Shown here one piece after another: positions 5,364 through 29,442 of a stretch of 31,297 nt of DNA. A program made the translations under genes and the position numbers. The notes under the pieces were generated by a model. That model saw nothing but the letters and a program-made list of their open reading frames with translations, did no database searches and was not told the origin of the DNA. Each line of letters begins with the position of its first letter. The stretch's first letter is position 1. Origin of the DNA: a virus; IMG/VR virus record IMGVR_UViG_3300045994_000108, positions 1 through 31,297 of that record. One strand, written 5' to 3'.

Positions 5364-5365
5364 GA

Positions 5366-6162: not shown

Positions 6163-6193
6163 TTGTTTGTCCTGTTCATTCTTACCCCTAAAA

Positions 6194-6215: not shown

Positions 6216-6230
6216 GTTAGTTGAATTCAG

Positions 6231-6602: not shown

Positions 6603-6617
6603 GTAGGAATCTTTCGT

Positions 6618-7462: not shown

Positions 7463-7472
7463 TTTATTTTCC

Positions 7473-9203: not shown

Positions 9204-9215
9204 GAATCCTCCAAT

Positions 9216-9237
9216 AAAAAACCCGCTCAAGGCGGGT
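9216..9237 (-). terminator. Terminator plus ribosome-binding-site cassette upstream of tail fibre
   Basis: On the minus strand the stem ACCCGC/GCGGGT (arms at 9237-9232 and 9226-9221) is followed by a six-T run and then ATTGGAGGATTCATG, so the hairpin abuts the fibre ribosome-binding site. The same cassette occurs at 23832-23855. Both copies are also flanked on the plus strand by GTTGTGAAACAAAA, which marks a dispersed repeat. Confidence 0.75.
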
Positions 9238-9292
9238 CAGTTGTGAAACAAAAAATCACGGTAACGGTAAACCGTGAAAATTAAGTGTTGCT

Positions 9293-9955: not shown

Positions 9956-9957
9956 GA

Positions 9958-11079: not shown

Positions 11080-11081
11080 TG

Positions 11082-15797: not shown

Positions 15798-16023
15798 GGC
15801 AAAACCTTCCTTAAAATTCCGTCTGCATGAGTGGCTTGCAGATCACATAAACTGGGTTCAGTACCCGGGTGTAAGCATGGTCAGCGCTCAACCATTCTTC
15901 AAACATCAGATGCACTGGACTACACGCGTCTCGTTGCTGATGATCAGCCTGTTTGTTCTGGCAATATGCGCCGTTGCTCTGTTCTTCTTGGGACTATTGT
16001 TCTGGGCGCTATTTACGGCTTGA
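15796..16023 (+). CDS. Small membrane protein on the strand opposite to the tail operon
   Basis: 75 aa, plus strand, filling the only sizeable gap (15798-16012) among the minus-strand tail genes. The N-terminal ~44 residues are polar and basic (KPSLKFRLHEWLADHINWVQ), followed by a strong transmembrane segment at about 46-74 (SLLMISLFVLAICAVALFFL). Its ATG overlaps the tape measure ATG back to back, and its stop overlaps the end of the next gene. A weak AGG lies upstream, and a TTTATA could be a -10 box, but no good -35 is seen. An inverted single gene in a late operon suggests a moron, for example a superinfection-exclusion membrane protein. It could also be a chance ORF. Confidence 0.6.
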   Translation: MAKPSLKFRLHEWLADHINWVQYPGVSMVSAQPFFKHQMHWTTRVSLLMISLFVLAICAVALFFLGLLFWALFTA

Positions 16024-16507
16024 TTTCCATGTCGTAACCCAACGAGTGATGAATCACCTCACCACAGGTTAACCCTTCAATCGCAGCCTCGCCGATGATG
16101 TGCCGGATTTTCTCTTTGCTCCTGAATGCCGCCGGTCCAATGAAAGGCCGTGGCGGAATCGTCGCGGTACCGAATTCCTGATAAGCGGCAATGTCCGACT
16201 TACTGCCAATCACAGCCTCGTTACCATGGACTTCATGCTCGATCGAATCTCGCAGATCACCTTCGCGCAAAAGTGGCGCATCGTTCGCATAACCTAAGCG
16301 CGCCTTTTCTGTCTCAGTGCTTTCAGCCAGTGGTACCCAGTCCTGAAATGGGCCGACTTCCGGCTGATAGTGTCCGATTTCTGATTTCGCAGTTTTCTCA
16401 ATCAGTTTCGCGCACCGTTCAAGCGCCCTGTGTTCTGCAATCACCACAGCCGCAGACATGACGGCAAGGTGTTCGGCAAACTTTGCAAAACTATCAAATT
16501 CGCGCAT
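16013..16507 (-). CDS. HK97 gp10-like / virion morphogenesis protein
   Basis: 164 aa. It ends in the conserved block of the HK97-gp10-like family: LLREGDLRDSIEHEVHGNEA, then IGSKSDIAAYQEFGTATIPP followed by RPFIGPA. Members are tail-completion or head-tail joining proteins. Its usual place is between head and tail genes; here it sits between the tail chaperone and the tape measure. The ATG has AAAGGA about 7 nt upstream and lies 3 nt after the stop of the frameshifted chaperone extension. Confidence 0.85.
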   Translation of the reverse strand: MREFDSFAKFAEHLAVMSAAVVIAEHRALERCAKLIEKTAKSEIGHYQPEVGPFQDWVPLAESTETEKARLGYANDAPLLREGDLRDSIEHEVHGNEAVIGSKSDIAAYQEFGTATIPPRPFIGPAAFRSKEKIRHIIGEAAIEGLTCGEVIHHSLGYDMEIKP

Positions 16508-16510
16508 CGA

Positions 16511-16681
16511 TCAATCCTTTGTGAACTGCATCAGCGACCAGTCGAAGGTGGCGCCTTCCATTTCTGAGAAGATGATTGACCAGGCTGCTCGGGTAACTTC
16601 GTCCAAGCTAAACGCCACGTCGAAAGGAATGCCGTTTTTGATCAGCCACAGGCATTCCTTTATCGGCGCAGCGCGTGCTAG
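16511..16681 (-). CDS. Tail chaperone C-terminal extension reached by -1 frameshift
   Basis: 56 codons plus TGA in the -1 frame relative to 16678-17043, with no initiation codon of its own at the junction. It encodes LARAAPIKECLWLIKNGIPF, then DVAFSLDEVTRAAWSIIFSE and MEGATFDWSLMQFTKD, a sensible protein-like sequence with typical codon use. Ribosomes slipping at 16687-16681 would make a 177-aa fusion, equivalent to lambda gpGT or the Mu gp41/42 fusion, which binds tube protein and tape measure during tail assembly. The stop is 3 nt before the next start. The ORF is too short to be found by most ORF cut-offs. Confidence 0.85.
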   Translation of the reverse strand, partial: LARAAPIKECLWLIKNGIPFDVAFSLDEVTRAAWSIIFSEMEGATFDWSLMQFTKD

Positions 16682-17043
16682 TTTTTTAGCGCGGCCTTGT
16701 CAGCTTCTGGATTGGATTTGCCGAAGTTTTCAGACACGCCAGCCTGTACAGCAACAACTCCGGCTTCGTCCAAGCGCTGAATCAACGCCTCGATTTCGCG
16801 CTTTGAGGTTGGCTGAAACACTGTGTCGCCGTCGATTTCAGCAACGAAGATCAAGGGCAGCACCATGGCGGTGTAAACCTCGTTCTTTGCCGTTTCGCCC
16901 AATGTCTCAATCAGACGGTATTGCGCCAACACCCCGGGCTTTTTCAGCTTGATGCTGCGACCGGTTGCATCCACAACAACGACTTCAGCCTGAGCCTTTG
17001 CGACCACTTGCTCGCTTGGCGTGTTAATTGTCAATTTGGTCAT
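16678..17043 (-). CDS. Tail assembly chaperone, 0-frame product (Mu gp41-like)
   Basis: 121 aa. It lies directly after the tube gene and upstream of the tape measure, the constant position of the G/GT-type chaperone. It contains VVDATGRSIKLKKPGVLAQY and LGETAKNEVYTAMVLPLIFV. The frame ends ALKN-stop, and the last two sense codons form a slippery site, so part of the product is extended to about 177 aa. The chaperone keeps the tape measure protein extended during tube polymerisation and is not part of the virion. Confidence 0.9.
   Translation of the reverse strand: MTKLTINTPSEQVVAKAQAEVVVVDATGRSIKLKKPGVLAQYRLIETLGETAKNEVYTAMVLPLIFVAEIDGDTVFQPTSKREIEALIQRLDEAGVVAVQAGVSENFGKSNPEADKAALKN
16681..16687 (-). 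promoter_or_regulatory. Programmed -1 frameshift slippery heptamer
   Basis: The minus-strand heptamer A AAA AAC, phased so that AAA (16686-16684) and AAC (16683-16681) are 0-frame codons, is followed at once by the UAG stop (16680-16678). A-AAA-AAC fits the X-XXY-YYZ rule. The -1 frame is open for 57 codons (including its stop). A stimulatory pseudoknot downstream was not worked out. Confidence 0.85.
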
Positions 17044-17045
17044 GA

Positions 17046-17480
17046 TTAAGCCACCTTCAGACGACGAGCGGCACGGAAGCCGATGGTCATTGCGATTTTT
17101 GCATCAGCCGATTTCTTGCCAGCGTCCTGCAAGGTCAGTGATACGCCGGTGTAACGGTATTGCGACACAGCACCGTTGATTTCGGTGATTGTCTCGGTGA
17201 TTGTGACGGCGGTAGACGCAAGGCCGGAATAGAAGTTAGCTTCTTTCTGCGCGAAGAAGTCATCCACGGTTGAATCAGCACGATCCAGACTTAAACTACC
17301 ACTCCAGCCAGCTGGCAGGTCATCTAAACGATCCAGTCCGTCCATCCCTTTAGAATCAAGTGATTTGTAATTTGGCTTAGCATCGAAGCCAGTCATGATG
17401 CTGAAACGCAGTGGGCCAGACGGCCCGATGATGTCGAGCGATACATCCTTGCCGACGTTGAATTGATTGCTTGCTGACAT
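17046..17480 (-). CDS. Tail tube protein (Mu gp40-like)
   Basis: 144 aa. It follows the sheath gene, and its size and beta-rich sequence match tube proteins of Mu-like myoviruses (QFNVGKDVSLDIIGPSGPLR, LDRLDDLPAGWSGSLSLDRA and YRYTGVSLTLQDAGKKSADA). Hexamer rings of this protein form the inner tube through which DNA passes. The start at 17480 has a strong GGAGG ribosome-binding site directly after a terminator hairpin. The stop lies 2 nt before the chaperone start. Confidence 0.88.
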   Translation of the reverse strand: MSASNQFNVGKDVSLDIIGPSGPLRFSIMTGFDAKPNYKSLDSKGMDGLDRLDDLPAGWSGSLSLDRADSTVDDFFAQKEANFYSGLASTAVTITETITEINGAVSQYRYTGVSLTLQDAGKKSADAKIAMTIGFRAARRLKVA

Positions 17481-17498
17481 AGTGCCTCCAGAAATGAG

Positions 17499-17517
17499 AA
17501 AACCCGCCGAAGCGGGT
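17499..17517 (-). terminator. Terminator plus ribosome-binding-site cassette upstream of tail tube
   Basis: On the minus strand ACCCGC/GCGGGT pairs around a TTCG loop and is followed by TTTT, then CATTTCTGGAGG and the tube ATG. A near-identical layout precedes the sheath gene (19084-19105). In a Q-controlled operon these would be read through; they could also protect or punctuate the mRNA of highly made proteins. Confidence 0.72.
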
Positions 17518-17541
17518 CTTGTTGATGGTTTGAGTTACTGG

Positions 17542-19065
17542 TTATGCCAGGGCGACTGATTGACGATTGATCTGCACAGATTGACCGCCTTCCAAGTTGA
17601 TGATGAAGTATTCAACTACGCTCAGATAACGCACTTTCACATCCGCTTGCATGTAGCCAAGCGCCTGACGGTTCAAAGGGTTATTGGACAGGTCACAGAC
17701 CACGCTGTAATCGTCAATCATGCCCTGATCAACCATCGCCTGAAGGAATGCCGAGATAGTGGCGCCAGCTTCGCGGCGTGTTTTGTCAGTAGGTTTACTA
17801 GATTGCAGCTTACCAACGAAGATTCCCATGCCAGCATCAAGCGTTGACGCCACATAGTTAGTCATACGGGTGTAGTTATCGCCATGAATCACGGCGCTGC
17901 TCGAACTGTTGTGACCAAAGCGCGCCCCGAACATGCTTCCTGCTGGAATCGGGTTGACGATTACATCAATGCCAGCCTGCCCGAGCGCTTGCAGCTCTGC
18001 ACCAGAATACATCAGGCTTTGCATGCTCTTTTGTGTGCCGACAATGCCGTAAAGCGGTTTGTTCAGGCTGGATTGCTCAGGAGATAGATTGCTCAGTCGT
18101 CCGGCAACGTAGCCTTGAGGTGAAACCAGACGGGTGACGCCGTTAACGGTATCAAGGAAGTAAATCCAGTCGCCGAACACCGGTTTGAAAGCGTAACTAT
18201 CAATGCCTGCGGTGGCCTTCGTGGTGATCGCATTGGCGATAGAGTCGCCAGCTGGGCCAACGCCGATCATGTACGTACCTTCAGCCAATCCGTAGGCGAT
18301 TTGCGTACTCCATGTGGTCGAGTCGTCGCAATCGCACAACATACCGACCGATGCGCCCGAGCTGCGCAACGCATACATACCAGTGCGCGGCACAGTGTCA
18401 ACACCGACCAGCACAGAGCCGGTTATTGTGGCCACACCATCGGTGCCGCCAGTCAGGGTATAAGACGCCAGTGATGGAGCCGTAATACCAACACCAGCAG
18501 AGGCCACGATCAAATCAGACACGCCACGAATACCGGACTGTCCAGCATTGATTGCCGCAGCCATAGCGACCCACAGCGCGTTACCAGTACCGGCGATGTT
18601 GTCGAATACTTCCGGTACGCGACCGGCGCGCGCCACAACTGCCTTGAAGGTGCTGGCTTGCGAACCGGCTGCAATCGTAACCGTGTCGGCATTCGCCAGC
18701 GATCCGGTGTATTTCGATGTGAAGGTGATGCAGTTGGTCAGCACCGCGATCGATGCAGCCACGTCGGTACCATCCGTAACGCGAACAGCGCGGAAGTTCG
18801 AAGCGCCCTGTAAGACCGCAACCGCAAGCTGCGTGCCGAGGTCATACTTACGGTTTTGAATCGCGCCAAACAAGCGCGAATAATCGGCCATGCCGCCAAC
18901 GATTGCGGGTGCGTTCTTCGGCCCCCATTGCGCGGTACCGACCGCACCGAGAATATTGGTAGGCACGCCATTCAGCAGTGTGACGGAAGGCGGAACGATT
19001 TGAACGTAAAGATCTGGAACGACAAGCGCCGTGGTATTGATGCTACCTTGCTGGTTGATTGGCAT
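17542..19065 (-). CDS. Tail sheath protein (Mu gp39/gpL-like)
   Basis: 507 aa. The N-terminus MPINQQGSINTTALVVPDLY, then the segment IVPPSVTLLNGVPTNILGAV and TAQWGPKNAPAIVGGMADYS, are typical of Mu-like contractile sheaths. The C-terminal handshake-type domain includes KVRYLSVVEYFIINLEGGQS. It polymerises around the tube and contracts at infection, which establishes the phage as a myovirus. It has a strong ribosome-binding site (AGGAGG) after a terminator hairpin. The stop is followed by the hairpin before the tube gene. Confidence 0.95.
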   Translation of the reverse strand: MPINQQGSINTTALVVPDLYVQIVPPSVTLLNGVPTNILGAVGTAQWGPKNAPAIVGGMADYSRLFGAIQNRKYDLGTQLAVAVLQGASNFRAVRVTDGTDVAASIAVLTNCITFTSKYTGSLANADTVTIAAGSQASTFKAVVARAGRVPEVFDNIAGTGNALWVAMAAAINAGQSGIRGVSDLIVASAGVGITAPSLASYTLTGGTDGVATITGSVLVGVDTVPRTGMYALRSSGASVGMLCDCDDSTTWSTQIAYGLAEGTYMIGVGPAGDSIANAITTKATAGIDSYAFKPVFGDWIYFLDTVNGVTRLVSPQGYVAGRLSNLSPEQSSLNKPLYGIVGTQKSMQSLMYSGAELQALGQAGIDVIVNPIPAGSMFGARFGHNSSSSAVIHGDNYTRMTNYVASTLDAGMGIFVGKLQSSKPTDKTRREAGATISAFLQAMVDQGMIDDYSVVCDLSNNPLNRQALGYMQADVKVRYLSVVEYFIINLEGGQSVQINRQSVALA

Positions 19066-19083
19066 ATACGCCTCCTAGAAATG

Positions 19084-19105
19084 AAAAAACCGCCCGAAGG
19101 CGGTT
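19084..19105 (-). terminator. Terminator plus ribosome-binding-site cassette upstream of tail sheath
   Basis: On the minus strand the 7-bp stem AACCGCC/GGCGGTT (19105-19099 with 19094-19088) closes a TTCG loop and is followed by TTTTTT, then CATTTCTAGGAGG and the sheath start. The stem is different from that at 17499-17517, but the flanking CATTTCT(A)GGAGG is shared. Confidence 0.75.
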
Positions 19106-19127
19106 GGTTAATCTGATTTTTTGCTAC

Positions 19128-19278
19128 TTATTCGGCAGGAGCATCAGGCGCTTGCACAGAAAGAACGTGGGCTTGCGAATCACCCTCAAGGATCGTCGCC
19201 ACAGTGGCGGGGTCGTTGATTTCGTCACCCTTGGCGTATCCGTCAAAGGACTCAATTACGATTAGCTTAATTGCCATG
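19128..19278 (-). pseudogene. Small protein gene broken by one extra base (Mu gp38 position)
   Basis: An ATG at 19278 with a good ribosome-binding site (TAGGG, 7 nt away) opens a frame that stops after 8 codons (MAIKLIRN). If one C of the CC pair at 19261-19260 is removed, the frame runs for 49 codons: MAIKLIVIESFDGYAKGDEI, then NDPATVATILEGDSQAHVLS and VQAPDAPAE, ending at TAA 19128. The reconstructed protein looks like the small acidic proteins encoded between the tail terminator and the sheath gene in Mu-like modules. Either the gene is inactivated or the base is a sequencing or assembly error. Confidence 0.6.
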
Positions 19279-19285
19279 ATTTACC

Positions 19286-19882
19286 CTATCTGATAACGGT
19301 TGTAATGGTTGAAATCGGTACGTTTGTACCTGCGACCTGCGCAGACAATCCGAGGTTGACCTCGACAATCGGTGTCGCCGTCACTGTTTCGGTCGTTGCA
19401 TACTCAACCGAGTAATTCAAATCGCGGCGGTAAAGCTTTGATTTCTGATGATCGTCAATGACGCGGGTGTTGTGATACACCAGACGCGCGCCAAATCCAT
19501 CCGGCATCGTCAGGAACTGAGTCACCGCCAGCACCGGATCAATCGCCTGCGCCACCACGTCGCGGTGCGCTGGTGTGTCAGCCCATACCGTCACCATGTA
19601 TAAATGTTCTTGCCTACGAATCTCGCGGGACAGCTTGTTCCCTGGCATCGTCTGCCAGTCGGTCATCGGGTACCGCGTCGTGTTGCGTTCCGTTGTCGTT
19701 GGAAATACCGACACGTGAATCTTTCCAGCCAGCAAGTCGGCATCGAGCTGTTGCGGGTTGGGCCATCCGGCATAAACCACGCACGGCACGACCGCAACGC
19801 TTGGCTGTCCGGTCCCTGCCGGATACAGCGTGGCCGCAATCAGTGTGACCAGCGCATTCGACACATCAGATAGATCACTCAT
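19286..19882 (-). CDS. Tail terminator/completion protein (Mu gp37 position)
   Basis: 198 aa. It lies just upstream of the small broken gene and the sheath gene, which in Mu-like modules is the place of the gp37/tail-terminator protein. It contains LVTLIAATLYPAGTGQPSV, LLAGKIHVSVFPTTTERNTT and VTVWADTPAHRDVVAQAIDP, a pattern of beta strands around two helices as in gpU-like terminators. It probably caps the tube and sheath at the head end. The family is assigned mainly by position and general shape. Confidence 0.7.
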   Translation of the reverse strand: MSDLSDVSNALVTLIAATLYPAGTGQPSVAVVPCVVYAGWPNPQQLDADLLAGKIHVSVFPTTTERNTTRYPMTDWQTMPGNKLSREIRRQEHLYMVTVWADTPAHRDVVAQAIDPVLAVTQFLTMPDGFGARLVYHNTRVIDDHQKSKLYRRDLNYSVEYATTETVTATPIVEVNLGLSAQVAGTNVPISTITTVIR

Positions 19883-20532
19883 GTATGCACCTCTTGCGCG
19901 TTAATCCGCCATCCGAAATCCATCTGTTCTGCCGCTTCGATTGCATAACGTCGCCCCAGATCGTCGGTGGCAATGTCGCCTGATTTGATGCTTATTGGCA
20001 CAGAAGGCGGCAACATGATTCGCCAGCCTGACTGCCGAACGTCTGCGGGCAGATTCAAGGCGGCCTGACTTCTGCCGCCCAGCAGGATAGAGCAAGGCCA
20101 CAGCGCACCTGTCGTGCCGAGAACATCGGTTTCCTGCGCTGGTTGCATGCCACTGTATCCAACCGCACCAACCGCCGTGACCGGCACCTCGCGGGTGATT
20201 TTCAACTGGCGGTTGCATTCAACAACCACAATCGGAAGCAGTTCTTGTTGATTGGCGATGTAAAACGTGTCGCCATCAAAAACGCGGATCAGGTAATCAC
20301 CTGGTTGAGTAATGCGGCCATCAAGATCAGCGAACCACAGCGCATCACCGGGCAGATTCGGCGCTTTGTAGTTGCTGTCACCGGAGTTAAACGCGGCCTT
20401 GATTGTTGCAGCCAGATTACCCAGTGGAGCAGTTGCGGTTAATGGCCGGTATACAGAGCAATCACGCCCCATACGTAGCGCAGCTTTCCCGCGTCCTGCG
20501 TAAATCTTTGCCTGAATCGTTGCGCCGTCCAT
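19879..20532 (-). CDS. Head-tail connector region protein, unknown
   Basis: 217 aa. It sits between the adaptor-like gene (20534-20926) and the tail terminator, with a 4-nt overlap with the latter. It contains MDGATIQAKIYAGRGKAALR and LPGDALWFADLDGRITQPGD, then YLIRVFDGDTFYIANQQELL and a C-terminal GRRYAIEAAEQMDFGWRINA. Proteins with such YxxxxP...GD..vr..G..Y.i....L.P patterns occupy the head-closure or stopper slot in several proteobacterial phages. No catalytic motif is visible. Confidence 0.7.
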   Translation of the reverse strand: MDGATIQAKIYAGRGKAALRMGRDCSVYRPLTATAPLGNLAATIKAAFNSGDSNYKAPNLPGDALWFADLDGRITQPGDYLIRVFDGDTFYIANQQELLPIVVVECNRQLKITREVPVTAVGAVGYSGMQPAQETDVLGTTGALWPCSILLGGRSQAALNLPADVRQSGWRIMLPPSVPISIKSGDIATDDLGRRYAIEAAEQMDFGWRINAQEVHT

Positions 20533-20533
20533 A

Positions 20534-20926
20534 TCACACCACCAGCGACAGGCCGCCGCTACTTAATCCTGCACCAGGTGGAATGCCGAAGAATGCGCAC
20601 AGCTCACGCCGCGTGCCATTGAACAGCGCTTTTCGGTCTCTGTATTCATTCTTGTTATGTTTCCAGACCGCCGCCGTGTCAGTGTCCAGATTCGCCCGAA
20701 TGCCAGCAGAGCCGAGAATGTCAGACTCCAGCGTGTTCAGATTGGCGAGATAGCTTGTACGGACAACGGTTTCTTCAGCCGTGGACAGCGTATTCAGCTT
20801 GTATTCCAGCACGCCGTAATGCTGCGAGAAGCGGTAGCCGGATGCGGGCGTAGGCTGCCCACCTCCCCACACCCCGTACCCGCAGAAACGGCGCACGTCG
20901 ATTTTTTCGGCTTCTGTGAATGCCAT
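20534..20926 (-). CDS. Head-tail adaptor-like protein
   Basis: 130 aa, mostly helical. It contains EKIDVRRFCGYGVWGGGQP, LEYKLNTLSTAEETVVRTSY, LDTDTAAVWKHNKNEYRDRK and RRELCAFFGIPPGA. This combination (RRFCGY at the start, LDTD..AVW in the middle, R..LC.F.G.PPG at the end) is familiar among uncharacterised phage structural proteins encoded soon after the capsid gene, where portal-binding adaptors are found. It starts 2 nt after the upstream gene stop and is followed 1 nt later by 19879-20532. Confidence 0.72.
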   Translation of the reverse strand: MAFTEAEKIDVRRFCGYGVWGGGQPTPASGYRFSQHYGVLEYKLNTLSTAEETVVRTSYLANLNTLESDILGSAGIRANLDTDTAAVWKHNKNEYRDRKALFNGTRRELCAFFGIPPGAGLSSGGLSLVV

Positions 20927-20928
20927 GG

Positions 20929-21330
20929 TTACTCGGCCTTAAAGATTGCGCCGCGATCAACCAGCAGCGCGATTTCTGTTGCATCCGCTACCGTTTGACC
21001 CGCCAACCATTGATGCATTGCGCCCGCATCGTCATAGAATGCGTAAGGTGCGGCCAGCGTGAGCGATGCAGGCAGCACATCAACATCGTCATCCGTTATT
21101 TCGGTTTCAGTCAGCTCTTCAGCCGTAACAATGCTGGTGACCTGTTTCTGACGCTGGTGCCGCACTTTTGTTTTCACGGTTGGCGCGACGGGTGCCGGAA
21201 CTGGATCGACAACCACGGGCGCAACTTCAGGCGCTGTTGCAACCGGCTCAACAACGGTTTCCGGTGCGACTGGCGCACCCGAATCAATGACAGGCGCAAC
21301 ATCAACAGGTGCTTGTGTGGTTTCGTCCAT
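20929..21330 (-). CDS. Pro/Val/Ala-rich phage protein with C-terminal domain
   Basis: 133 aa from the ATG at 21330, which has GGAAGG about 8 nt upstream; a longer frame opening at TTG 21345 lacks that support. The first ~50 residues are low complexity (Pro, Val, Ala: APVVVDPVPAPVAPTVKTKV) and likely disordered. A basic patch (KVRHQRQKQ) and an acidic stretch (ETEITDDDVDV) follow, then a small domain with LAAPYAFYDDAGAMHQWLAG and QTVADATEIALLVDRGA. It lies next to the capsid gene, in the position of small head accessory proteins. The function is unknown. Confidence 0.7.
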   Translation of the reverse strand: MDETTQAPVDVAPVIDSGAPVAPETVVEPVATAPEVAPVVVDPVPAPVAPTVKTKVRHQRQKQVTSIVTAEELTETEITDDDVDVLPASLTLAAPYAFYDDAGAMHQWLAGQTVADATEIALLVDRGAIFKAE

Positions 21331-21367
21331 TTTATTTCCTTCCAATGAGGTTAAAAGCTGTGTCTCA

Positions 21368-21391
21368 TAGTGGCCGCGTCAGCAGCCACTA
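21368..21391 (-). other. Ten-base-pair hairpin after the capsid gene
   Basis: On the minus strand the arms TAGTGGCTGC and GCGGCCACTA pair with one G.U wobble around a TGAC loop, 19 bp past the capsid stop. The mismatch on the plus strand becomes a wobble in the minus-strand RNA, so the fold suits the mRNA. There is no T-run. It may be a 3' stabiliser of capsid mRNA or a weak pause. Confidence 0.5.
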
Positions 21392-21409
21392 CAGGCCTAA
21401 GCCTTGGGG

Positions 21410-22771
21410 TTAAACGTGTTCAATCACCACCGCACGTTTCAGGTATTGAGCGCCTGCCGTTGGGATGATGTTGCTGTTTGCGGTTGCGTCGGTTGGGGCA
21501 ACGAAGCCGCCGATCCAGAACCACGACTGCGCGATGATTTGTTGCAGACGATCGATTGGAGCGCGAACCACTTGAACCACGTCATCAACAACGTGGATTT
21601 CGGAGTTCATGCCAGCGATGTCATGCGCCTTTTCGGTCATGCCGTCGAAGTCGCCTTCTACCAGCGCGCCCTGTGCAACCAGAATCGGACGGCGAACTGT
21701 CAGACCAGCGGTTGATGGGTGTGCCTGAGTCAGGGCTTCGGTTGTTGGGATGAAGTTCGCACCCATCAACTGGAATACCTTGCCAGCCTGCACCGTTTCG
21801 CTGCCGTACTGGCCTTGATACATCAGTTTGAAGTCCTGATCCGCGAACAACTGACGCATAGAAACGTTGTCCAGGTACAGATTGAACATTTCGGTCTGGA
21901 CACCCGTGTTGTTGCGCAAGTTGGCGATCGCGTCTTCAATCACGCCCAGCGTCAGGTTGTCGGTGCTGGCCAGCGCGTTGGTGCTGGTCGTTGCCGCATA
22001 GCTTGCGCCACCTGTCCACTTACCGTTTGGACGCACTGCCACGGGAGCATTGGCATGATCCACACGGTTCAGCGCGGTACCGTCTGCAACAGTGACGTTA
22101 CCGGAGAAGGTCAGCGTGCCGGAGAAGCCGCCGGGGGTGGTTGACACGTTGGAGCCATCGCGAGCGGTACCGATCAGCGTGTACAGCGTCGAGCCGATCA
22201 ACACAGGAGCGGTAAACGTGCCAGAAACAGCCACATACTTACCAGCAGATGCGCCGGTACCGAGTACAGTTTCAAAGCCGCGCACATCATCCACGTTGAT
22301 AGTTGCAGCTGGAGCGCCGAGCGTGGTACGAACACGTGTGTGCCCGCCCAGATAAGCAGCAAACAGCGCATTACGAGCCAAACGATCAAGCGACTGCCGA
22401 GCCTGCACACCGTTGGTCATGGCGTTTTTCAGGAACTGATTCGCGATACCGACTTGAGACGTTACGGTATTCAGGTCGATCGAATCGCCGTACTGGTCAA
22501 TGCCGAGGGTGTATTGCTCGATGGTTTGAGCGGATGGGGTCATACCGTTGTCCAGATTGGTGTTGCCAGATGCGGACAATGGCGTGGTGACCGGTGCCTT
22601 CAAACCGAGACGGGTCTTAGTGACGGTTTCACCTACGTTGATTTTGACAGGCTCGCGGTCAGCGATGGCACGGAAGCCGAGTGCTGACTGAAGGCCGGTA
22701 TGAAACTCACGTTCGAGGAAACCTTGCTGAACTGCGTTCTGTAGCGACGCGGGCATATTTTGAATGGGCAT
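21410..22771 (-). CDS. Major capsid protein
   Basis: 453 aa. It is encoded directly after the scaffold-like gene. The N-terminal part (LQNAVQQGFLEREFHTGLQS, then VTKTRLGLKAPVTTPL) and the C-terminal part (LVEGDFDGMTEKAHDIAGMN, DDVVQVVRAPIDRLQQIIAQ) fit an HK97-fold capsid of the kind found with SPP1-like portals. A Gly/Thr-rich beta segment at about residues 165-245 (AGKYVAVSGTFTAPVLIGST) looks like an inserted surface domain. It has a strong GGAG ribosome-binding site. It is probably the most abundant head protein. Confidence 0.85.
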   Translation of the reverse strand: MPIQNMPASLQNAVQQGFLEREFHTGLQSALGFRAIADREPVKINVGETVTKTRLGLKAPVTTPLSASGNTNLDNGMTPSAQTIEQYTLGIDQYGDSIDLNTVTSQVGIANQFLKNAMTNGVQARQSLDRLARNALFAAYLGGHTRVRTTLGAPAATINVDDVRGFETVLGTGASAGKYVAVSGTFTAPVLIGSTLYTLIGTARDGSNVSTTPGGFSGTLTFSGNVTVADGTALNRVDHANAPVAVRPNGKWTGGASYAATTSTNALASTDNLTLGVIEDAIANLRNNTGVQTEMFNLYLDNVSMRQLFADQDFKLMYQGQYGSETVQAGKVFQLMGANFIPTTEALTQAHPSTAGLTVRRPILVAQGALVEGDFDGMTEKAHDIAGMNSEIHVVDDVVQVVRAPIDRLQQIIAQSWFWIGGFVAPTDATANSNIIPTAGAQYLKRAVVIEHV

Positions 22772-22875
22772 GTTTGCTCCTATAAAAGTGACGTTGAAAT
22801 GTCAGTCCCATAGGCGTCTTGCCCCGATAGACCTGCGCGAAATGCGCCGATTGTTGAAACCTTGTGATTCTTGAA

Positions 22876-22898
22876 GCCGCTGACATCGAGCCAGCGGC
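22876..22898 (-). other. Hairpin between scaffold and capsid genes
   Basis: A perfect 7-bp stem (GCCGCTG/CAGCGGC) with a 9-nt loop starts 8 bp after the scaffold stop. There is no T-run. The rest of the 134-bp gap (22772-22905) holds the capsid ribosome-binding site and no gene that I can see. It may adjust the scaffold to capsid expression ratio. Confidence 0.4.
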
Positions 22899-22905
22899 AT
22901 TTGTG

Positions 22906-23520
22906 TTACTTGATTGCTTTACGAGCCGCCGCGTATTCTTCGGCGGTCATTTCCTTGGCATTCTTTGCCGAGGGTGGATTGGAAGCTGGTGGCTTGCTGG
23001 GGTTGCTGCTGTTCTGCGTCGAGCCGAACAGGTAAGGCTTTGATTTCTTCATTTCTTCCAGCATGGTGTCAGCGCCATCAACAGTGCCGTCATCCTTCAG
23101 CGTGACTTTTGACAGGTCAGCCAATTTCAGGCCATCCAGATCAATCATTCCAGCTTTCAGCGCGGCGGCCTTCAGTTCAGAGCGTAAGATTCGATCGTTC
23201 GCTGCTGTTTCTGCCGCTTTTACCTTTGCTTCGGACTCCTGCGCAGCCTTTTCAGCTGCCGTCTTGTGTGTTGCGCTTTCCTGTTCAAGAGTGGACGCTT
23301 TCAAGCGCCAATTCTTGTTCTCTTCGCGCAGCTCCTTGACGTATTCGCGGCTGAAATGCTCTTTTGTGTCATTGTCGTTATTTCCACCGGCTGGCTTGCC
23401 GTCACCACCTGCACCACCCGAACCGCCTGCCCCGCCGCCATCACTGCCATCAACGCTGAAACGCATCAAGCCAATCGGCAAAAGGAAGGCAAGCAGCCTC
23501 GACATCATTGTGCGTTTCAT
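22906..23520 (-). CDS. Capsid scaffolding protein
   Basis: 204 aa. A Gly-rich N-terminal segment (GSDGGGAGGSGGAGGDGKPA) precedes a long charged helix (residues about 55-120, with ELREENKNWRLKASTLEQES), then a short C-terminal region ending KEMTAEEYAAARKAIK. A glycine-rich start, central coiled coil and basic C-terminal helix directly before the capsid gene are the standard marks of a scaffold that guides procapsid assembly. Several Met codons (1, 5, 6, 19) could serve as starts. The hydrophobic first 15 residues are odd, and a start at Met19 (MRFSVDG) would remove them. Confidence 0.85.
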   Translation of the reverse strand: MKRTMMSRLLAFLLPIGLMRFSVDGSDGGGAGGSGGAGGDGKPAGGNNDNDTKEHFSREYVKELREENKNWRLKASTLEQESATHKTAAEKAAQESEAKVKAAETAANDRILRSELKAAALKAGMIDLDGLKLADLSKVTLKDDGTVDGADTMLEEMKKSKPYLFGSTQNSSNPSKPPASNPPSAKNAKEMTAEEYAAARKAIK

Positions 23521-23819
23521 TGCGTTACCTCATTTCTTTCAAAGCGATCCAACTCGCGTTGGTGTTCTTGCGCATCGTGACCAGCAGCGCCTTGGCGCAC
23601 TAAGTCGTAATGCTGTGACAGATTCAAGTGAATCCCGACTGACAGCATTTCATTAGCTCGTGAATGATTAACTCCATGGGCTGTCATGCCAATTGAGCCA
23701 TCCTCATTCGAGATAAGAATAATTACTCCGGCCGCGCCAAGTCGTTTGGCGGTGAACGGTGCAATATTTCCCATGTGCAGATCTGGTGCTTCAGGTTGTT
23801 GCGTTGGTGTGTCAGACAT
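23517..23819 (-). CDS. Small phage protein, unknown
   Basis: 100 aa, not recognised. A polar N-terminus (MSDTPTQQPEAPDLHMGNIA) is followed by LGAAGVIILISNEDGSIGMT and AHGVNHSRANEMLSVGIHLN, a small alpha/beta domain, and a charged C-terminus. It overlaps the scaffold start by 4 nt. Its own start follows the terminator/ribosome-binding-site cassette at 23832-23855, with a GGAGG ribosome-binding site. The position suggests a head-assembly accessory protein. Confidence 0.7.
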   Translation of the reverse strand: MSDTPTQQPEAPDLHMGNIAPFTAKRLGAAGVIILISNEDGSIGMTAHGVNHSRANEMLSVGIHLNLSQHYDLVRQGAAGHDAQEHQRELDRFERNEVTQ

Positions 23820-23831
23820 CAGTCCTCCAAT

Positions 23832-23855
23832 AAAAAAGCCCGCATCGAGCGGGCT
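23832..23855 (-). terminator. Terminator plus ribosome-binding-site cassette upstream of 23517-23819
   Basis: On the minus strand the 7-bp stem AGCCCGC/GCGGGCT has a 5-nt loop and is followed by TTTTTT, then ATTGGAGGACTGATG. The sequence from the T-run to the ribosome-binding site is the same as at 9216-9237. The plus-strand flank GTTGTGAAACAAAA is shared too, so the two sites are copies of one dispersed element with changed stems. Confidence 0.75.
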
Positions 23856-23880
23856 GGGTTGTGAAACAAAATCCGATAAA

Positions 23881-24315
23881 TCAGTAGTCGTACATACACA
23901 TACTCAGGAGCAACACAGTCGGGATGCTGGTTGCGAGAACAATCTTCATCCGCAGTTTGTTCCCGATCGGGTAGAGCTGCATCTGAACCATGCTGCTTGC
24001 GGCACTGGTTGTCGATCCACCTGTCTGCACTGTGCTCGATGTTTTAAGCGGCAATGGCGGCTGTGCATATGCATTCAGCGCATCCTCCTGAACATTGACA
24101 CTGAACGTGTCGCCGTTGTTGGCGCTCGAAGTCTTGCTAGCGATGATCGTGCGAACACTTTCAGGCACATCGACGTCGATATAAACAGTGTCGCCGACCA
24201 CCAGCCCCGGCACAGCCAAGGCATTGAAGTGGCGCTCGTACCGGATGGCAGCTTGTGTTCTAGTGTTTGAGGCCACTTGATAGCCGGAGTAAGTTGCAAG
24301 ATTGTAAATAGCCAT
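23881..24315 (-). CDS. Head structural protein, unknown
   Basis: 144 aa. It contains YNLATYSGYQVASNTRTQAA, GLVVGDTVYIDVDVPESVRT and MVQMQLYPIGNKLRMKIVLA; the alternating pattern suggests beta structure. It lies between portal and scaffold genes and ends in an aromatic/Met-rich tail (MCMYDY). A decoration or minor head protein is possible, but no family is recognised. An AAGGA ribosome-binding site precedes the ATG. Confidence 0.65.
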   Translation of the reverse strand: MAIYNLATYSGYQVASNTRTQAAIRYERHFNALAVPGLVVGDTVYIDVDVPESVRTIIASKTSSANNGDTFSVNVQEDALNAYAQPPLPLKTSSTVQTGGSTTSAASSMVQMQLYPIGNKLRMKIVLATSIPTVLLLSMCMYDY

Positions 24316-24324
24316 GCTTTATCC

Positions 24325-25794
24325 TTAATCGTTTGCGTCAGGTGACGGGTTGCCGGTCTTCACCTCTGTACCAGGTGGCGGAGGCTCGGACTTGATAATT
24401 TTCAGCTCTTCCGCTGGATCGGCGATGTCGTAGCCCGGCGCCAGCGTCTTGACGGCGGTTTCCTGCGACAACAGCGCTTTATCTCGCAACGTGCCAAGCG
24501 TCAGCGCTTCAGATTGCTTATCCGCATAGGTTGGCGCGTACCAGTGAGGCCAGCGCAACGACAGATCATCACCTTGGCTCAAGTCACCAATCTCTTTGCG
24601 CTTGACCTTGATTTTCATCTTTGCCGATGCGGTCACGATCATTCGCAACAGAGACAGCAAAGCGCCCTCGCCGTAACTGATGCGCAACTTGTCAGCCAGC
24701 CAGATCAAAGACTGGTTCATCAGCTCCATTGCGCGGCCAGACTGCGCAGCGCTCAACTTGTCAGCGTTCGCCCTGTTGCCGTGTGCAGATTCCAGCGCCA
24801 GCTCACGCAGCGCCCGAACGTACTCAATGACGGCAGCCGAAGCCGTGCCGTTGATTTCCAGCATCTTCGCATCGCCGTCAGCGTTGACAACAATCGCATT
24901 GCCGCCCCCTTTGACCATCGTGCCATCATCACCCATCGCTGGCTCTTTAATGAGTAGCGTCGGGTCCATGGCGTACTTCAAGCCACGACCATTCTGTGAC
25001 AGCTGATAATCGATCTCGATCTGAGTGTCGATTGCTTCGGGCGGAAATGTGCATGCACCATCGATGTCATCACCGCCTGGCATGTTCTTGACCCAGACTA
25101 TCGGCACGAAACCAAGGTTATGCTGAACCGTGTTTTTCGGGTCTGGCTGCGGGGTAGATTCTTCAACCGATTTGACGTTCACCTTCCACGGAAGCATCCA
25201 CGTTTCAGCGATTGCATCCCACTCGCGACTGAACCAGAAATCAACAGTCACTTCGTCATCGGCAATCGTGTAGCCCATGCCTTTGAGGACAGCGCCCTTG
25301 ACCTTGTATTTCTCAACAACCTTTTCCAGCGTGTCCGGCTCGTCCGCCTTCCAGACTGGCGTCAGGTACTGCGTATTGAACACCGAGAAGAACAGGCGAT
25401 TGCTCAGTATGCACATCAAGATTGCCACAGAACCGACGCTTCCGACTGTTGCGGCTTCGATCATGATCTCGTTCAGCCGTGATTCCTTGATGATGTCGGA
25501 CAGCGCCAAGCGGGTTGCCTCGTCCACGCACTCAACAGAGGGGAAATGCCCTTCGCTGAACAGCAGTGACACAGAGTCATCCACCACAACCTTGCACAGC
25601 GCATAACGCACCGACGGCCTGCGATCTCTAATTGGTATGTATTCGTCTATCCCGTCAATCTTCTCCTGATTGAACGGGTGCTTGATGTGTTCGTACAGCT
25701 TCCCCTTGATAACCCGCGTCAATACGTCAATATCGAACTGACGCTGCGGAAAATCCGTGTCGCGCGTGATTTTCGATTTGATGGTTTTGAACAT
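24325..25794 (-). CDS. Portal protein (SPP1 gp6-like)
   Basis: 489 aa, the usual size of portals. It has VRYALCKVVVDDSVSLLFSE near the start, then a central DFWFSREWDAIAETWMLPWK and LGFVPIVWVKNMPGGDDIDG, and a C-terminal helical region (GRAMELMNQSLIWLADKLRI). These fit the SPP1-like portal family. The ring of portal subunits nucleates the capsid, holds the terminase during packaging and is the DNA exit. It is followed in transcription order by minor head proteins and scaffold. The proline-rich C-terminus (EPPPPGTEVKTGNPSPD) is likely flexible. Confidence 0.88.
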   Translation of the reverse strand: MFKTIKSKITRDTDFPQRQFDIDVLTRVIKGKLYEHIKHPFNQEKIDGIDEYIPIRDRRPSVRYALCKVVVDDSVSLLFSEGHFPSVECVDEATRLALSDIIKESRLNEIMIEAATVGSVGSVAILMCILSNRLFFSVFNTQYLTPVWKADEPDTLEKVVEKYKVKGAVLKGMGYTIADDEVTVDFWFSREWDAIAETWMLPWKVNVKSVEESTPQPDPKNTVQHNLGFVPIVWVKNMPGGDDIDGACTFPPEAIDTQIEIDYQLSQNGRGLKYAMDPTLLIKEPAMGDDGTMVKGGGNAIVVNADGDAKMLEINGTASAAVIEYVRALRELALESAHGNRANADKLSAAQSGRAMELMNQSLIWLADKLRISYGEGALLSLLRMIVTASAKMKIKVKRKEIGDLSQGDDLSLRWPHWYAPTYADKQSEALTLGTLRDKALLSQETAVKTLAPGYDIADPAEELKIIKSEPPPPGTEVKTGNPSPDAND

Positions 25795-25806
25795 GGATTC
25801 GCCTGA

Positions 25807-26964
25807 TTAACAGATGTACCAGCTCAAAGAAGCGTGGTCATATTGCAGATTGACCGGAGTATTGCCTACCAAAGCGGCTGGCGCGCCAACGATTGATCCC
25901 CCTGCGCTAGTCCATGTAGTTACTGGACGCGCCACGGTTGACATCACTGTTACTGTTAAACCGTCAATACCAATGGCAGCTGCGGGTAATGTCAGCGCGA
26001 AAGCAGCACCGGCAGCACCTGTGAAGAAAGTGTTGGCGGTGGTCAGAGTGGCAGCAACTAGAGCAGCTGTTGCGATAACCGATTTTGAAAAGTTTTGAAT
26101 GCCAGCAGACGACACTGTAAATTTACCAGGAATGGATAACGCACCGTTGATCGAATCAAAGGAATAAACTTGAGTCCATGCAGGAATAGACCCCGCAGCC
26201 CCAGAAACTGCTGACCAAATTTCCTGCAACCCCGCAGCGTCATTCCATTTTGACACCCAGCAAACATCCAATACATCGCGAACCCCGGTGAGGATGTTGT
26301 AGTTGTAGGTGATGCCGTACTCAGTTGATCCGAAAGCAGGCGTAAAGGTGATAGGTGTTGTAATCGGCAGCGCAGCCGTTGTTGCGGCGCTAAGAGTAAC
26401 AACCCCGGTCGCAGGAACATATGATGCAACATAAGCGCCTGCCGGAATATTCGCATTCCCTGTTACATTCATGCCGACATAAATTCCGGCCGTATTTACC
26501 GCGACGTTGAACGCAACGCCCGCTGCGCCTTGAGCCGCGCTGGTATTTATTACGTTAGCTGTCATATCCGCCCACTCGCGGATAAACGCGCCGCCAATTG
26601 GCGTAAGTGTGCGAACCAGACCTGAAAACAACTGCGACATAGCGCCTGTAGCCGACAGGGTGGAAAACGCCCCTGTATTCGGTGTCGCCGCCCCGATTGG
26701 CGTGTTATTTACAGATCCGCCAGTAATTGCGACAGCAGCAGGATTGAATATGGCGCTAACAGGCAACGATGCGCCAATCGCCACCCAGCCAGCACCACCC
26801 CAATAGTAGTAACCAAGCACGGTTACGATGCTGCCTGCCGTCTTGACGATCTTCAGTAGGGTTTCCGGATTCGATGGCGCGCCAATATTGGCAAATTCAT
26901 AGTCCTGCGCCTCGATCAAACTTTGAACATCGCCAGCGACCAGCGAATAGACCATTTTTGCCAT
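25807..26964 (-). CDS. Fibre-like structural protein between terminase and portal genes
   Basis: 385 aa from the ATG at 26964, which has AAAGG about 8 nt upstream; the open frame reaches 27030 inside terL, but that extension has no support. The N-terminus KMVYSLVAGDVQSLIEAQDY leads to VAITGGSVNNTPIGAATPNT, a motif common in attachment regions of phage fibres and appendages. The rest is Ala/Thr/Val-rich beta sequence, and the C-terminal ~90 residues (FALTLPAAAIGIDGLTVTVM ending YDHASLSWYIC) look like a small beta-sandwich cap. A head fibre or capsid-bound receptor-binding protein fits the location. The exact role is unknown. Confidence 0.7.
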   Translation of the reverse strand: MAKMVYSLVAGDVQSLIEAQDYEFANIGAPSNPETLLKIVKTAGSIVTVLGYYYWGGAGWVAIGASLPVSAIFNPAAVAITGGSVNNTPIGAATPNTGAFSTLSATGAMSQLFSGLVRTLTPIGGAFIREWADMTANVINTSAAQGAAGVAFNVAVNTAGIYVGMNVTGNANIPAGAYVASYVPATGVVTLSAATTAALPITTPITFTPAFGSTEYGITYNYNILTGVRDVLDVCWVSKWNDAAGLQEIWSAVSGAAGSIPAWTQVYSFDSINGALSIPGKFTVSSAGIQNFSKSVIATAALVAATLTTANTFFTGAAGAAFALTLPAAAIGIDGLTVTVMSTVARPVTTWTSAGGSIVGAPAALVGNTPVNLQYDHASLSWYIC

Positions 26965-26969
26965 TTTTA

Positions 26970-28244
26970 TTACCTTTCCATGCGGATAACTGTTGTTCTG
27001 TGTGCGCTGACCGGCTTCACGATGGGCCACTTGAAGTGTAGGAAGTAACCAAGCGCATCAGGCCCGTGGTCTTTGCCGTCTGACTTGTCAGGCTCGCCGT
27101 TGTCGTCGTAAATCTGTTGTTCCAGGCATTCGGTGATCGTCGGTGCCAGTCTGGTGTTGATCAGCAGCTTGCGTTCACCGATTGCATTGCAAATCAGTCC
27201 ATTCACCGCCATGACACGCTCTTTAACGAACGGGTTTTTGTTTGGGAACAGCACATTGAATCCGGCGCGCTTGAGCAGCAGAATGTCACTCTCAGTCGCG
27301 TTCACCGTCTTGTTGCTATTGCCGGATGCATCCGGGTAAATCGTGATCTTGTGATCAGGAAACTTTTCTTTGATCGTGCTGATAACGTGCGGCGTGTCGC
27401 GCATCTTCACCAGCTCACCGAGTATCTTTGGAGCGCCGAACCGGATTACACCGACTGCCGCCGTGCAGTTGTACACGTTGAAGTCGAGGCCGATGTGCAG
27501 CTCTTCGCCAGAACATATCTCTTCGTCTGTGTGATTCTTCGCGCGATCAAAGTCAGGATAAACAGCGCCAGCCGTCAGATTGACGAACTGCCCTTCAAGG
27601 TACGCGGCGATCAGCTGCGGCGGATATGACCGCTTGAGCGAATCAATGTAGCCAGCTGGTAGGTTGCGTTCGTTGCTGTACGTGCTGGCACGGATAAGCC
27701 GATAGCCTTCCAGCTGCTCTTTTGCCCATTGCTGATAAACGAACCTAAAGCCTTCCGGCGTTGTGGCTACACCAACAGTATTCAGCGATCCGTCAGCTTT
27801 CTTCTGCCGATTACGTGCAATCACCTGACGCCATGCGTGCTCAGCATCTTCTCGCTTCAGCGTGTCCAGCTCGTCAACGATACTGTCCGCAACCTCGTAA
27901 CCAACTATCCGCGCCGGATTGTCCAGCGTGCGAAAAATGATTTGCCCTTTGTCCTTGATCGTTAGAACGTGATCAGACTGATTCAGCTTGAACTTTACCC
28001 TGGCATTCGTCAGCACTTCGGTGAAGCGCGGATAACCGATCATCCGCACTAAGTCGTACGTCGGCAGGTAATAGGCAATGTTCTGTTTCGGATGCGCAAA
28101 CTTGAGACGCAACGCCCGCATGATCGCGGCCTGAGTCTTCCCAGACCCGAAGCCAGCCACCATTGCTGGAAACTGTTCGTTAGCGTTGACGAATGCCGCC
28201 TGCGGAATGCTTGCGCTACTCCTGAGCCTAACCTTCGTCATCAT
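26970..28244 (-). CDS. terL: Terminase large subunit
   Basis: 424 aa. The ATPase domain has Walker A AGFGSGKT (K36) and Walker B SIVDELD (D124, E125), with a coupling motif around VGVATTPEGF. The RNase H-like nuclease has D254 (HIGLDFN), D305 (YPDASG) and D392/D396 (KDHGPDALGYF). It pumps DNA into the capsid and cuts concatemers. It overlaps terS by 17 bp. Short TerL proteins of this kind occur with SPP1-like portals and usually package by headful, but the packaging type cannot be read from this window. Confidence 0.95.
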   Translation of the reverse strand: MMTKVRLRSSASIPQAAFVNANEQFPAMVAGFGSGKTQAAIMRALRLKFAHPKQNIAYYLPTYDLVRMIGYPRFTEVLTNARVKFKLNQSDHVLTIKDKGQIIFRTLDNPARIVGYEVADSIVDELDTLKREDAEHAWRQVIARNRQKKADGSLNTVGVATTPEGFRFVYQQWAKEQLEGYRLIRASTYSNERNLPAGYIDSLKRSYPPQLIAAYLEGQFVNLTAGAVYPDFDRAKNHTDEEICSGEELHIGLDFNVYNCTAAVGVIRFGAPKILGELVKMRDTPHVISTIKEKFPDHKITIYPDASGNSNKTVNATESDILLLKRAGFNVLFPNKNPFVKERVMAVNGLICNAIGERKLLINTRLAPTITECLEQQIYDDNGEPDKSDGKDHGPDALGYFLHFKWPIVKPVSAHRTTVIRMER

Positions 28245-28737
28245 AGGGAATCACATCAAAACCGGTAACCTCGTGAGCCGTATCGCCTTCACCATCGCCC
28301 TTGATCTGCTTTTCGATCAACTGCATCTGTAAGCGCTGTAATTCGAGCTTTCCGATTCTTGCCTGTAAGCGATCAACGTGCGCGTTGTAGTCGCGAACCT
28401 TCTTTTTCCGAGACTCACGAGCGACATTCTCACCGCCGCCATCGTTTTCCGTGACCTCATCCAGTTCAGGCTTGCCCTCTGCCAAGTTTTCAGCGGCCAG
28501 CGTCCTCGCCAATCGAATGCGCGCCAGAAGAATCTCATGGTCGACCTTCCCAAGCTCCAGCGCGTTGTACATCTCGCGCTCAGACTCTGTCAGGTGCTGT
28601 TGGTAGATTCCGTGGGTTTTGGCATTCAGGTTGCTGATGCTTGCCCCGCCATGCAACTTGCAGCGGTTTTTATTTCTTAACGGGGGCTTTTTACACGTCC
28701 CGCCGCTGCGAGTTTTAGCCCCACATGTATCTGCCAT
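28228..28737 (-). CDS. terS: Terminase small subunit
   Basis: 169 aa. The N-terminus carries a small metal-binding motif: C5, C15, C26 and H29 in CGAKTRSGGTCKKPP and RCKLHGG, a pattern seen at the start of many phage TerS-like proteins (HGG-K/A). The central region is helical (about 50-90), followed by a Gly/Glu-rich loop and a coiled coil (VDRLQARIGKLELQRLQMQL) for oligomerisation. It recognises the packaging site and activates TerL, whose gene it overlaps. It is the first gene after the late promoter and terminator region. Confidence 0.85.
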   Translation of the reverse strand: MADTCGAKTRSGGTCKKPPLRNKNRCKLHGGASISNLNAKTHGIYQQHLTESEREMYNALELGKVDHEILLARIRLARTLAAENLAEGKPELDEVTENDGGGENVARESRKKKVRDYNAHVDRLQARIGKLELQRLQMQLIEKQIKGDGEGDTAHEVTGFDVIPYDDEG

Positions 28738-28800
28738 GTGAGCGCCCTTTCATGGGGGGTTTTACAAAATTCGTTTCAACTCGGATATTTTGCGCAATGC

Positions 28801-28833
28801 AAAACGCCCACCGGAATCAACCGAATGGGCGTT
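28801..28833 (-). terminator. tR'-like terminator in the late leader
   Basis: On the minus strand AAACGCCCA pairs with TGGGCGTTT, with an upper CGG/CCG stem after a small internal loop, followed by TTTTG. It lies about 45-70 nt after the start point expected from the promoter at 28877-28904 and before terS. A terminator between a strong promoter and the first late gene is the lambdoid tR' arrangement. The remaining parts of 28738-28911 hold no gene. Confidence 0.72.
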
Positions 28834-28876
28834 TAATTTGTTCAGGGTGCAGGAATGAACCTACGAATAACTATGC

Positions 28877-28904
28877 ATTTTAGAGAGATTTTGCACAATG
28901 TCAA
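28877..28904 (-). promoter_or_regulatory. Strong sigma70 promoter for late genes (pR'-like)
   Basis: On the minus strand there is a perfect -35 TTGACA (28904-28899), a 16-bp spacer and -10 TAAAAT (28882-28877, five of six consensus). It lies just after the stop of the Q-like gene and points toward terS. Transcription would start near 28870 and meet the terminator within about 70 nt unless antiterminated. Confidence 0.8.
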
Positions 28905-28911
28905 ACTATTT

Positions 28912-29442
28912 TCACGGGATCAATCCTGCCGCCTGTAATTCGCGGTGCGCGCCCTCTTCCGCCCTCTCCCAGAGCTTGTGCAAACACGCGCGGATATTCT
29001 TCCATGCCGGGCTAACAGTGTTGCGATGCGCTCCAATTTCCTCAGCAACGTCCTGAACACCTATCTTCAGCCCGAAGTATTTCTGCACCAATGCGTCAGC
29101 AGCTCGTGCGCTATGCATTCCGGTACCGAGACTAGCCACTGCAACCGGAAGCAACGCCATCCGCGCCTCGTAGCACTCACGCTCGTTGGCCGCAAATCGC
29201 GCCGCAATCATGTTTCGCTCGTACACATCAAGCTTTCCAACGACCGCGCGCACAAGCCCAGCCTGAGCAGCCCCATCCAGTCCTGACAACCCCTTTCCGC
29301 TTCCAGTTGCCCCACGCATTGCGATCAGCATCAATGATGGGCTGTATTGCTGGCCTGAATAGCGAAATGCGAACGTGAGCGCCTGGTGAGCCCCATCAAA
29401 CAAATAATCATCGTACTGTTTCACCGCTGCGCTATTTACCAT
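28912..29442 (-). CDS. Q-like late antiterminator
   Basis: 176 aa from the ATG at 29442, which has GGAGGCGG upstream; a frame opening at TTG 29463 is less likely. The middle part (LDGAAQAGLVRAVVGKLDVY then ERNMIAARFA) and a C-terminal helix-turn-helix (IGVQDVAEEIGAHRNTVSPA) followed by a basic helix parallel the architecture of phage Q antitermination proteins. The context supports this strongly: it is the last early-side gene, directly before a strong promoter and a terminator that precede the late genes. It should load onto paused RNA polymerase and let it pass terminators. It could instead be another HTH activator of late genes. Confidence 0.7.
   Translation of the reverse strand: MVNSAAVKQYDDYLFDGAHQALTFAFRYSGQQYSPSLMLIAMRGATGSGKGLSGLDGAAQAGLVRAVVGKLDVYERNMIAARFAANERECYEARMALLPVAVASLGTGMHSARAADALVQKYFGLKIGVQDVAEEIGAHRNTVSPAWKNIRACLHKLWERAEEGAHRELQAAGLIP

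Follow-up and report, generated by a model that had tools for sequence, protein, structure and literature searches.

How are the late genes of this myovirus switched on, and does the small protein encoded directly 5' of the late promoter carry RNA polymerase past the terminator that follows it? In the text below, the window is the whole stretch of DNA that was analysed, i.e., positions 1–31,297 of the virus record IMGVR_UViG_3300045994_000108 (31,297 bases).

Late promoter, terminator and late operon in the window

The genes discussed here lie on the minus strand and are read leftward. The early region contains an RdgC homologue (30337–31239, minus strand; Pfam E = 5.5e-108), which is followed by small early genes and by a gene for a protein of 176 aa. 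Next come a promoter, a short leader, a terminator hairpin, terS and approximately 23–24 kb of co-directional myovirus genes (Table 1). Elsewhere in the window (1–2271, plus strand), a diversity-generating retroelement was observed, with matches to an Avd-like protein (113–961) and a reverse transcriptase (958–2271). Positions 1–43 and 1063–1105 form a 43-nt near-repeat with eight mismatches, seven of which have an A in the 1063 copy; a template and its variable repeat, the latter truncated by the contig end, would be expected to look like this.

A sequence-only reading had claimed that a gene for a Q-like helix-turn-helix (HTH) protein runs directly into the near-consensus promoter TTGACA-16-TAAAAT, and then into a terminator before terS. 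Its coordinates proved accurate, and the arrangement of gene, promoter and terminator is confirmed. The promoter starts 7 nt past the stop codon and agrees with the consensus at 11 of 12 positions. Five promoter-like sites were found between 27600 and 31297 (2.7 ± 1.4 in shuffled sequences), of which this one alone scored above 9/12. Judged by the position of the −10 hexamer, transcription would start at about 28870. The terminator has a stem ACGCCC...GGGCGT with a 17-nt loop, then TTTGCATT, and its U-tract is short (TTTT, then GCATT). A scan with a loop limit of 8 missed this hairpin because of the longer loop, and it was found with a script that admits loops of up to 18. The fold of leader and hairpin together was matched or surpassed by just one of 200 shuffles (z = −3.09). 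The sequence TTGACNTTGTGCA occurs in the window without mismatch only at 28892–28904 and the leader block is likewise present once; therefore, the window holds one switch, and the idea of further copies of the module was rejected.

Table 1. Features of the proposed late switch and the late operon in the window, with their positions.
Feature	Position	Strand	Remarks
Gene of predicted Q-like (AlpA-fold) antiterminator	28912..29442	-	176 aa; ATG 29442, stop 28912
Sigma-region-4-like HTH			near C-terminus of the 176-aa protein; recognition residues HRNT
-35 hexamer TTGACA	28899..28904	-	promoter scan
Putative loading half-site TTGTGCA in -35/-10 spacer	28892..28898	-	relatives: full TGTGCA...TGCACA
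-10 hexamer TAAAAT	28877..28882	-	promoter scan
Leader block TTATTCGTAGGTTCA	28856..28870	-	at or just 3' of the predicted transcription start; counterpart of ATTCGATAC in relatives
Promoter-proximal intrinsic terminator	28796..28832	-	hairpin 28832-28804 and T-rich tail
Late operon, terS to endolysin	5557..28737	-	all genes on minus strand
Internal intrinsic terminator	23838..23854	-	19 nt 5' of ATG of gene 23517-23819
Internal intrinsic terminator	19089..19104	-	24 nt 5' of tail sheath ATG (19065)
Internal intrinsic terminator	17502..17517	-	22 nt 5' of ATG at 17480
Internal intrinsic terminator	9221..9237	-	18 nt 5' of tail-fibre gene ATG (9203)

The sequence-only reading had also described about 24 kb of myovirus late genes running in one direction from this point. 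This description holds: the late operon lies entirely on one strand, and its genes match late families in the order terS and terL (terminase), portal, scaffold, major head, tail sheath, tape measure, baseplate, fibre and endolysin. A strict scan of 5550–28740 detected four intrinsic terminators, all in the sense direction and all in intergenic DNA (5.2% of the region), with none antisense; in 20 shuffles, the mean was 0.35 and the maximum was 1. The hairpins end 18–24 nt before the next ATG, which leaves no room for a promoter, so that the genes behind them would be transcribed only via read-through. The start codons of the tail sheath and the tail fibre genes directly follow internal terminators, and the need for read-through therefore extends to these two. 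Promoter-like sites were not in excess in 4700–24690 (nine, versus 13.0 in shuffles). Under the same terminator rule, Bcep176 has five sense terminators, three of which lie between annotated genes, and one antisense; Shewanella phage QDWS has three sense and none antisense. Two of the late genes share a cassette at their 5' side (9193–9253 and 23806–23871, minus strand; 79% identical over 66 columns), which consists of TTTTGTTTCACAAC, a hairpin, a T-run, ATTGGAGGA and the start codon.

The protein, its family and its predicted fold

The sequence-only reading saw no close likeness to the Q proteins of lambda, 21 or 82 and raised the possibility of a distinct antiterminator class. Profile searches bear this out. 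The window protein has no convincing match in Pfam, PHROGs or NCBIfam, and no Q model was matched in these libraries. With 32 aligned members, Pfam yielded no Q model at E up to 0.01; with 55 members and E up to 0.1, there was none among the 25 of 34 matched families listed. Profile comparison using hhalign gave probabilities of 0.2, 0.1 and 0.3% for lambda Q, QuuD and YdfT, respectively; the latter two, which we take to be 82-type Q proteins, stood in for 82 Q. In profile searches of the PDB with 7, 32 or 55 members, 21Q was absent from the matches listed. The matches that were obtained are weak: BFVD returned several, one of them named 'Antitermination protein Q' (E = 0.019), and a relative with 68% identity (P0002) matched sigma-70 region 4 (E = 3e-4 in Pfam and 0.0012 in NCBIfam). 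The same region was the commonest weak match in the family, found for nine of 55 members with a best E of 0.0011.

Relatives were found in five of 50,697 phage records, in 199 viral loci confirmed by an alignment-based viral scan, of which the best 80 were used, and in 38 loci of species genomes, mostly Burkholderiales. The family counts given below cover the best 80 of the 199 viral loci, the 38 genome loci, four phage records and the window. A near-duplicate contig (L011, of L010) was left out of the family counts, and two loci with frame problems (L049 and L111) were left out of all of them. All 55 aligned members have in common, in the N-terminal part, an A, the motif GxGLxGxxGA and a G; the N-terminal segment holds the invariant G-rich stretch GKGLxGLDGAAQAG. 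A C-x-C-x4-C-C insert is present in many relatives but absent from the window protein. One member, gp2 of Bcep176, carries no annotation beyond 'conserved hypothetical phage protein', and no paper recognised as describing this phage antiterminator family turned up in the open-access literature, which is weak evidence of novelty because the search covered open access only. In one locus from a Deltaproteobacteria MAG (L127), a gene about 130 nt past the Q-like stop has a start like that of the window terS (ATGGCTGATCCATGTGGGGC versus ATGGCAGATACATGTGGGGC).

The fold was predicted with AlphaFold2 from an alignment of 32 members. The model has a pLDDT of 86.7, and its zones of low confidence are mainly the N-terminus and about residues 31–54, i.e., the G-rich stretch. 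Foldseek ranked chains of AlpA, the Q-like antiterminator of Pseudomonas aeruginosa, first and second (probability 1.00, TM 0.64–0.72, E 5e-3 to 7e-3). Using VIA, the AlpA chains scored Z 13.9 and 13.2 over 151 residues and the next row 6.5; for a second family member, one with the Cys insert, the values were 14.0, 13.3 and 5.3, respectively, where it should be noted that helical models may reach Z 13–14 through arrangement and that the Foldseek E-values are modest. A PDB profile search with 55 members also placed AlpA on top, at E = 0.023, which alone is not significant; with 7 or 32 members, AlpA was not among the matches listed. Neither 21Q nor lambda Q was among the structural matches listed for either model, an absence that excludes nothing. 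The model thus matches AlpA over its whole length, and the window protein is predicted to have the AlpA fold. Since AlpA is itself a Q-like antiterminator, this would be a new family of known mechanism.

The module and its spacer site in relatives

In relatives as well, the gene ends just 5' of a late promoter and a co-directional late operon. A strict module, i.e., a promoter followed by a terminator 3' of the gene, was found in 28 of 58 protein clusters, as opposed to three of 1033 random windows and six of 445 stop codons of other long reading frames in these loci. The clusters were formed at 80% identity and needed at least 330 nt downstream, which dropped one of 59, and the promoter had to start within about 218 nt of the stop. 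An earlier version of the terminator rule was narrower, detecting the module in 19 of 59 clusters and failing to pick up the window. Its limits were then relaxed, and both controls refer to the relaxed form. A few of the 28 may be chance cases, as one lies 193 nt downstream (L115) and another is without the leader block (L106). When the promoter rule was relaxed, a promoter lay within about 100 nt of the gene in 86 of 120 members and was missing there in 34. Of 63 distinct promoters, 35 have a −35 hexamer that shares bases with the stop codon of the Q-like gene. In part of the family, other sequence lies directly 3' of the gene and the module is absent there. The Q-like gene and the promoter are separated by an annotated tRNA-Val gene in Achromobacter phage CF418P1 (L007, 4656–4742). 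Two viral contigs whose protein is 98% identical (L001 and L002) are near-identical to the window in DNA through TTTTGCATTG and the terminator, and then enter a different terS region. The break in similarity marks a recombination boundary where the module ends, and gene and module therefore look like one exchangeable unit.

In most relatives, the spacer between −35 and −10 holds an inverted repeat (mean score 5.08, versus 3.73 in shuffles; 63 distinct cases). Both sides changed together in all five of the pairs in 19 aligned modules, which were picked from those with a clear module. When the spacer repeat and the terminator stem were taken jointly, 89.8% of cells could pair, and none of 500 shuffles reached any of the five measures. 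The spacer helix lies upstream of the transcription start and is therefore a DNA palindrome, not an RNA structure. The window's own repeat is no better than shuffles (3 versus 3.6): only the upstream half was kept and the palindrome is decayed. Given a start at 28870, this half-site lies at about −28 to −22.

The arms of the repeat follow the recognition residues of the HTH. Arms of the form GTGCA/TGCAC were found in 15 of 15 members with HRNT and in none of the 15 members with another HxNT, so that HTH and arms agree in all 30 HxNT members; the window combines HRNT with TTGTGCA. On the tree, each of the two traits changes four times and the three independent pairs are all concordant, a test that was framed after the data had been seen and in which three pairs cannot reach p = 0.05. 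In a partial Mantel test, a method known to be liberal, r was 0.42 after removal of overall protein distance (60 members), and none of 1000 permutations was as high. Three loci with promoters judged spurious (L110, L041 and L128) were left out of the HTH-arm and pause-element tests. Covariation points to a protein-specific site between −35 and −10, to which the protein is predicted to bind.

An inverted repeat in the promoter spacer is the classic position of an operator, and agreement between HTH and arms fits any DNA-binding role. Both would suit a repressor or autoregulator that keeps the late promoter silent up to the time of its removal. However, the predicted fold matches an antiterminator over the full length, N-terminal part included, and repression leaves the terminator 3' of the promoter in the family and the internal terminators unexplained. 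The site itself is exactly where known Q-like proteins are reported to bind, as described for the ABE of AlpA (PMC7969949), the QBE of 21Q (PMC6606751) and the ZBE of GafZ (PMC11150451). We consider a repressor quite improbable.

Downstream of the start, relatives share the block ATTCG(a)TAC. A canonical −10-like hexamer (A2, T6) was not in excess in 52 leaders (0.615 versus 0.635 shuffled), nor did scoring for TATAAT-like hexamers exceed shuffles. The Q logic of gene, strong promoter, early terminator and long late operon is supported, with a canonical pause element not above chance. A conserved leader RNA hairpin was considered and rejected, since no structure besides the terminator stem and the spacer repeat appears in the consensus fold of 19 sequences. 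Leader pairing is possible between GTAGG and CCTGC (or similar) in the window and the 68% relative, and between CACG and CGTG in Burkholderia members. A T-run followed by GCATT(G/T) recurs 3' of many leader terminators, distant relatives included (e.g., L091, L104, L109 and L116), and is also seen at 28803–28796 of the window.

Proposed mechanism and comparison with known antiterminators

Taken together, we read the 176-aa protein as a processive antiterminator of the Q-like kind, built on the AlpA fold, and as the switch of the late operon, with a probability of roughly 0.85; antitermination is predicted. The gene, its promoter and the terminators, the degree to which these are conserved, the match to the AlpA fold and the parallel changes in HTH and spacer site lead us to infer the following course. 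RNA polymerase would start at about 28870 and, as long as the protein is lacking, would halt at the leader hairpin. Expression of the early operon would end with this protein, whose C-terminal HTH would then bind the −35/−10 site of the promoter directly 3' of its own gene. The N-terminal segment with the G-rich stretch, which has low confidence in the model, would then insert into the RNA exit channel as a ring. The polymerase modified in this manner would run past the hairpin in the leader and, within the 23-kb late operon, past four or more further terminators.

About as improbable as a repressor is a sigma-like or contact activator that raises initiation at the late promoter and for which the terminator is incidental. 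The recurrent weak match to sigma-70 region 4 speaks for it. However, the promoter is already close to consensus, and activation would not bring the polymerase through the leader terminator or the four internal ones that abut start codons; AlpA, moreover, is reported to antiterminate rather than activate (PMC7969949). Least probable of all is a stand-alone small RNA or attenuator independent of the protein, since, well as the leader and hairpin fold, conserved RNA structure is limited to the terminator stem (the spacer repeat being upstream of the start), there was no Rfam match and the module travels with the protein family.

The preferred reading, antitermination by an AlpA-fold protein, puts a name, and a mechanism open to testing, on a family for which library searches came up blank, and it locates the late switch in many Burkholderiales phages. 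The Q region looks ordinary on inspection; the probable phage AlpA-fold antiterminators with a putative palindromic loading site are a family absent from the libraries searched. A broader picture, which we offer tentatively and at less than even odds, is a large, as yet unannotated family of AlpA-fold, palindrome-loaded antiterminators with many co-evolving orthogonal HTH/arm pairs and without a canonical pause element, which read through operons where each gene has a gate of its own, a terminator fused to a ribosome-binding site. The natural pairs of HTH and site would offer a direct route to which residues read which bases and to whether two subunits load on a palindrome. The result also bears out a prediction in the AlpA structure paper that structure-based annotation finds more Q-like antiterminators (PMC9371919).

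Among known systems, lambda Q and 82-type Q share the gene order of Q, late promoter, terminator and late operon, whereas lambda Q, QuuD and YdfT have no profile similarity to the family. In lambda, the distance from promoter to terminator is also much greater. GafZ of the Caulobacter gene transfer agent resembles the family in being an antiterminator with a near-palindrome between −35 and −10, but it is described as acting with GafY and IHF and as being without sequence or structural similarity to AlpA or Q (PMC11150451). 21Q and its QBE follow the same promoter-terminator logic in late-gene control, with a sigma-region-4-like HTH, and AlpA and 21Q are reported to have a common fold without sequence homology (PMC9371919). 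Differences are that 21Q was not among the structural matches listed for the family models and that its QBE is described as a direct repeat of TGAGCA (PMC6606751), in contrast to the inverted repeat or half-site of the phage family.

The closest likeness is to AlpA (PDB 7XYA and 7XYB), which the model of the window protein resembles over its whole length at about 22–24% identity by structure, with a C-terminal HTH and an N-terminal ring segment as described in PMC9371919. AlpA also has an element between −35 and −10, at −25 to −20, and transcription soon meets an intrinsic terminator (at PA0807, 26 bp past the start); antitermination, not activation, is reported as demonstrated (PMC7969949). 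The phage family differs in the C-x-C-x4-C-C insert of many members, in the inverted repeat of most relatives as opposed to the single GGGACG of AlpA, in adjoining late genes rather than a cell-death operon and in its leaders, where, unlike AlpA, no canonical −10-like hexamer was detected. In the tentative broader picture, the palindrome suggests that two subunits load on inverted sites, whereas 21Q has a direct repeat and AlpA a single site, and the half-site of the window would then be a one-subunit form. In its action, the protein most likely works as AlpA and 21Q do.
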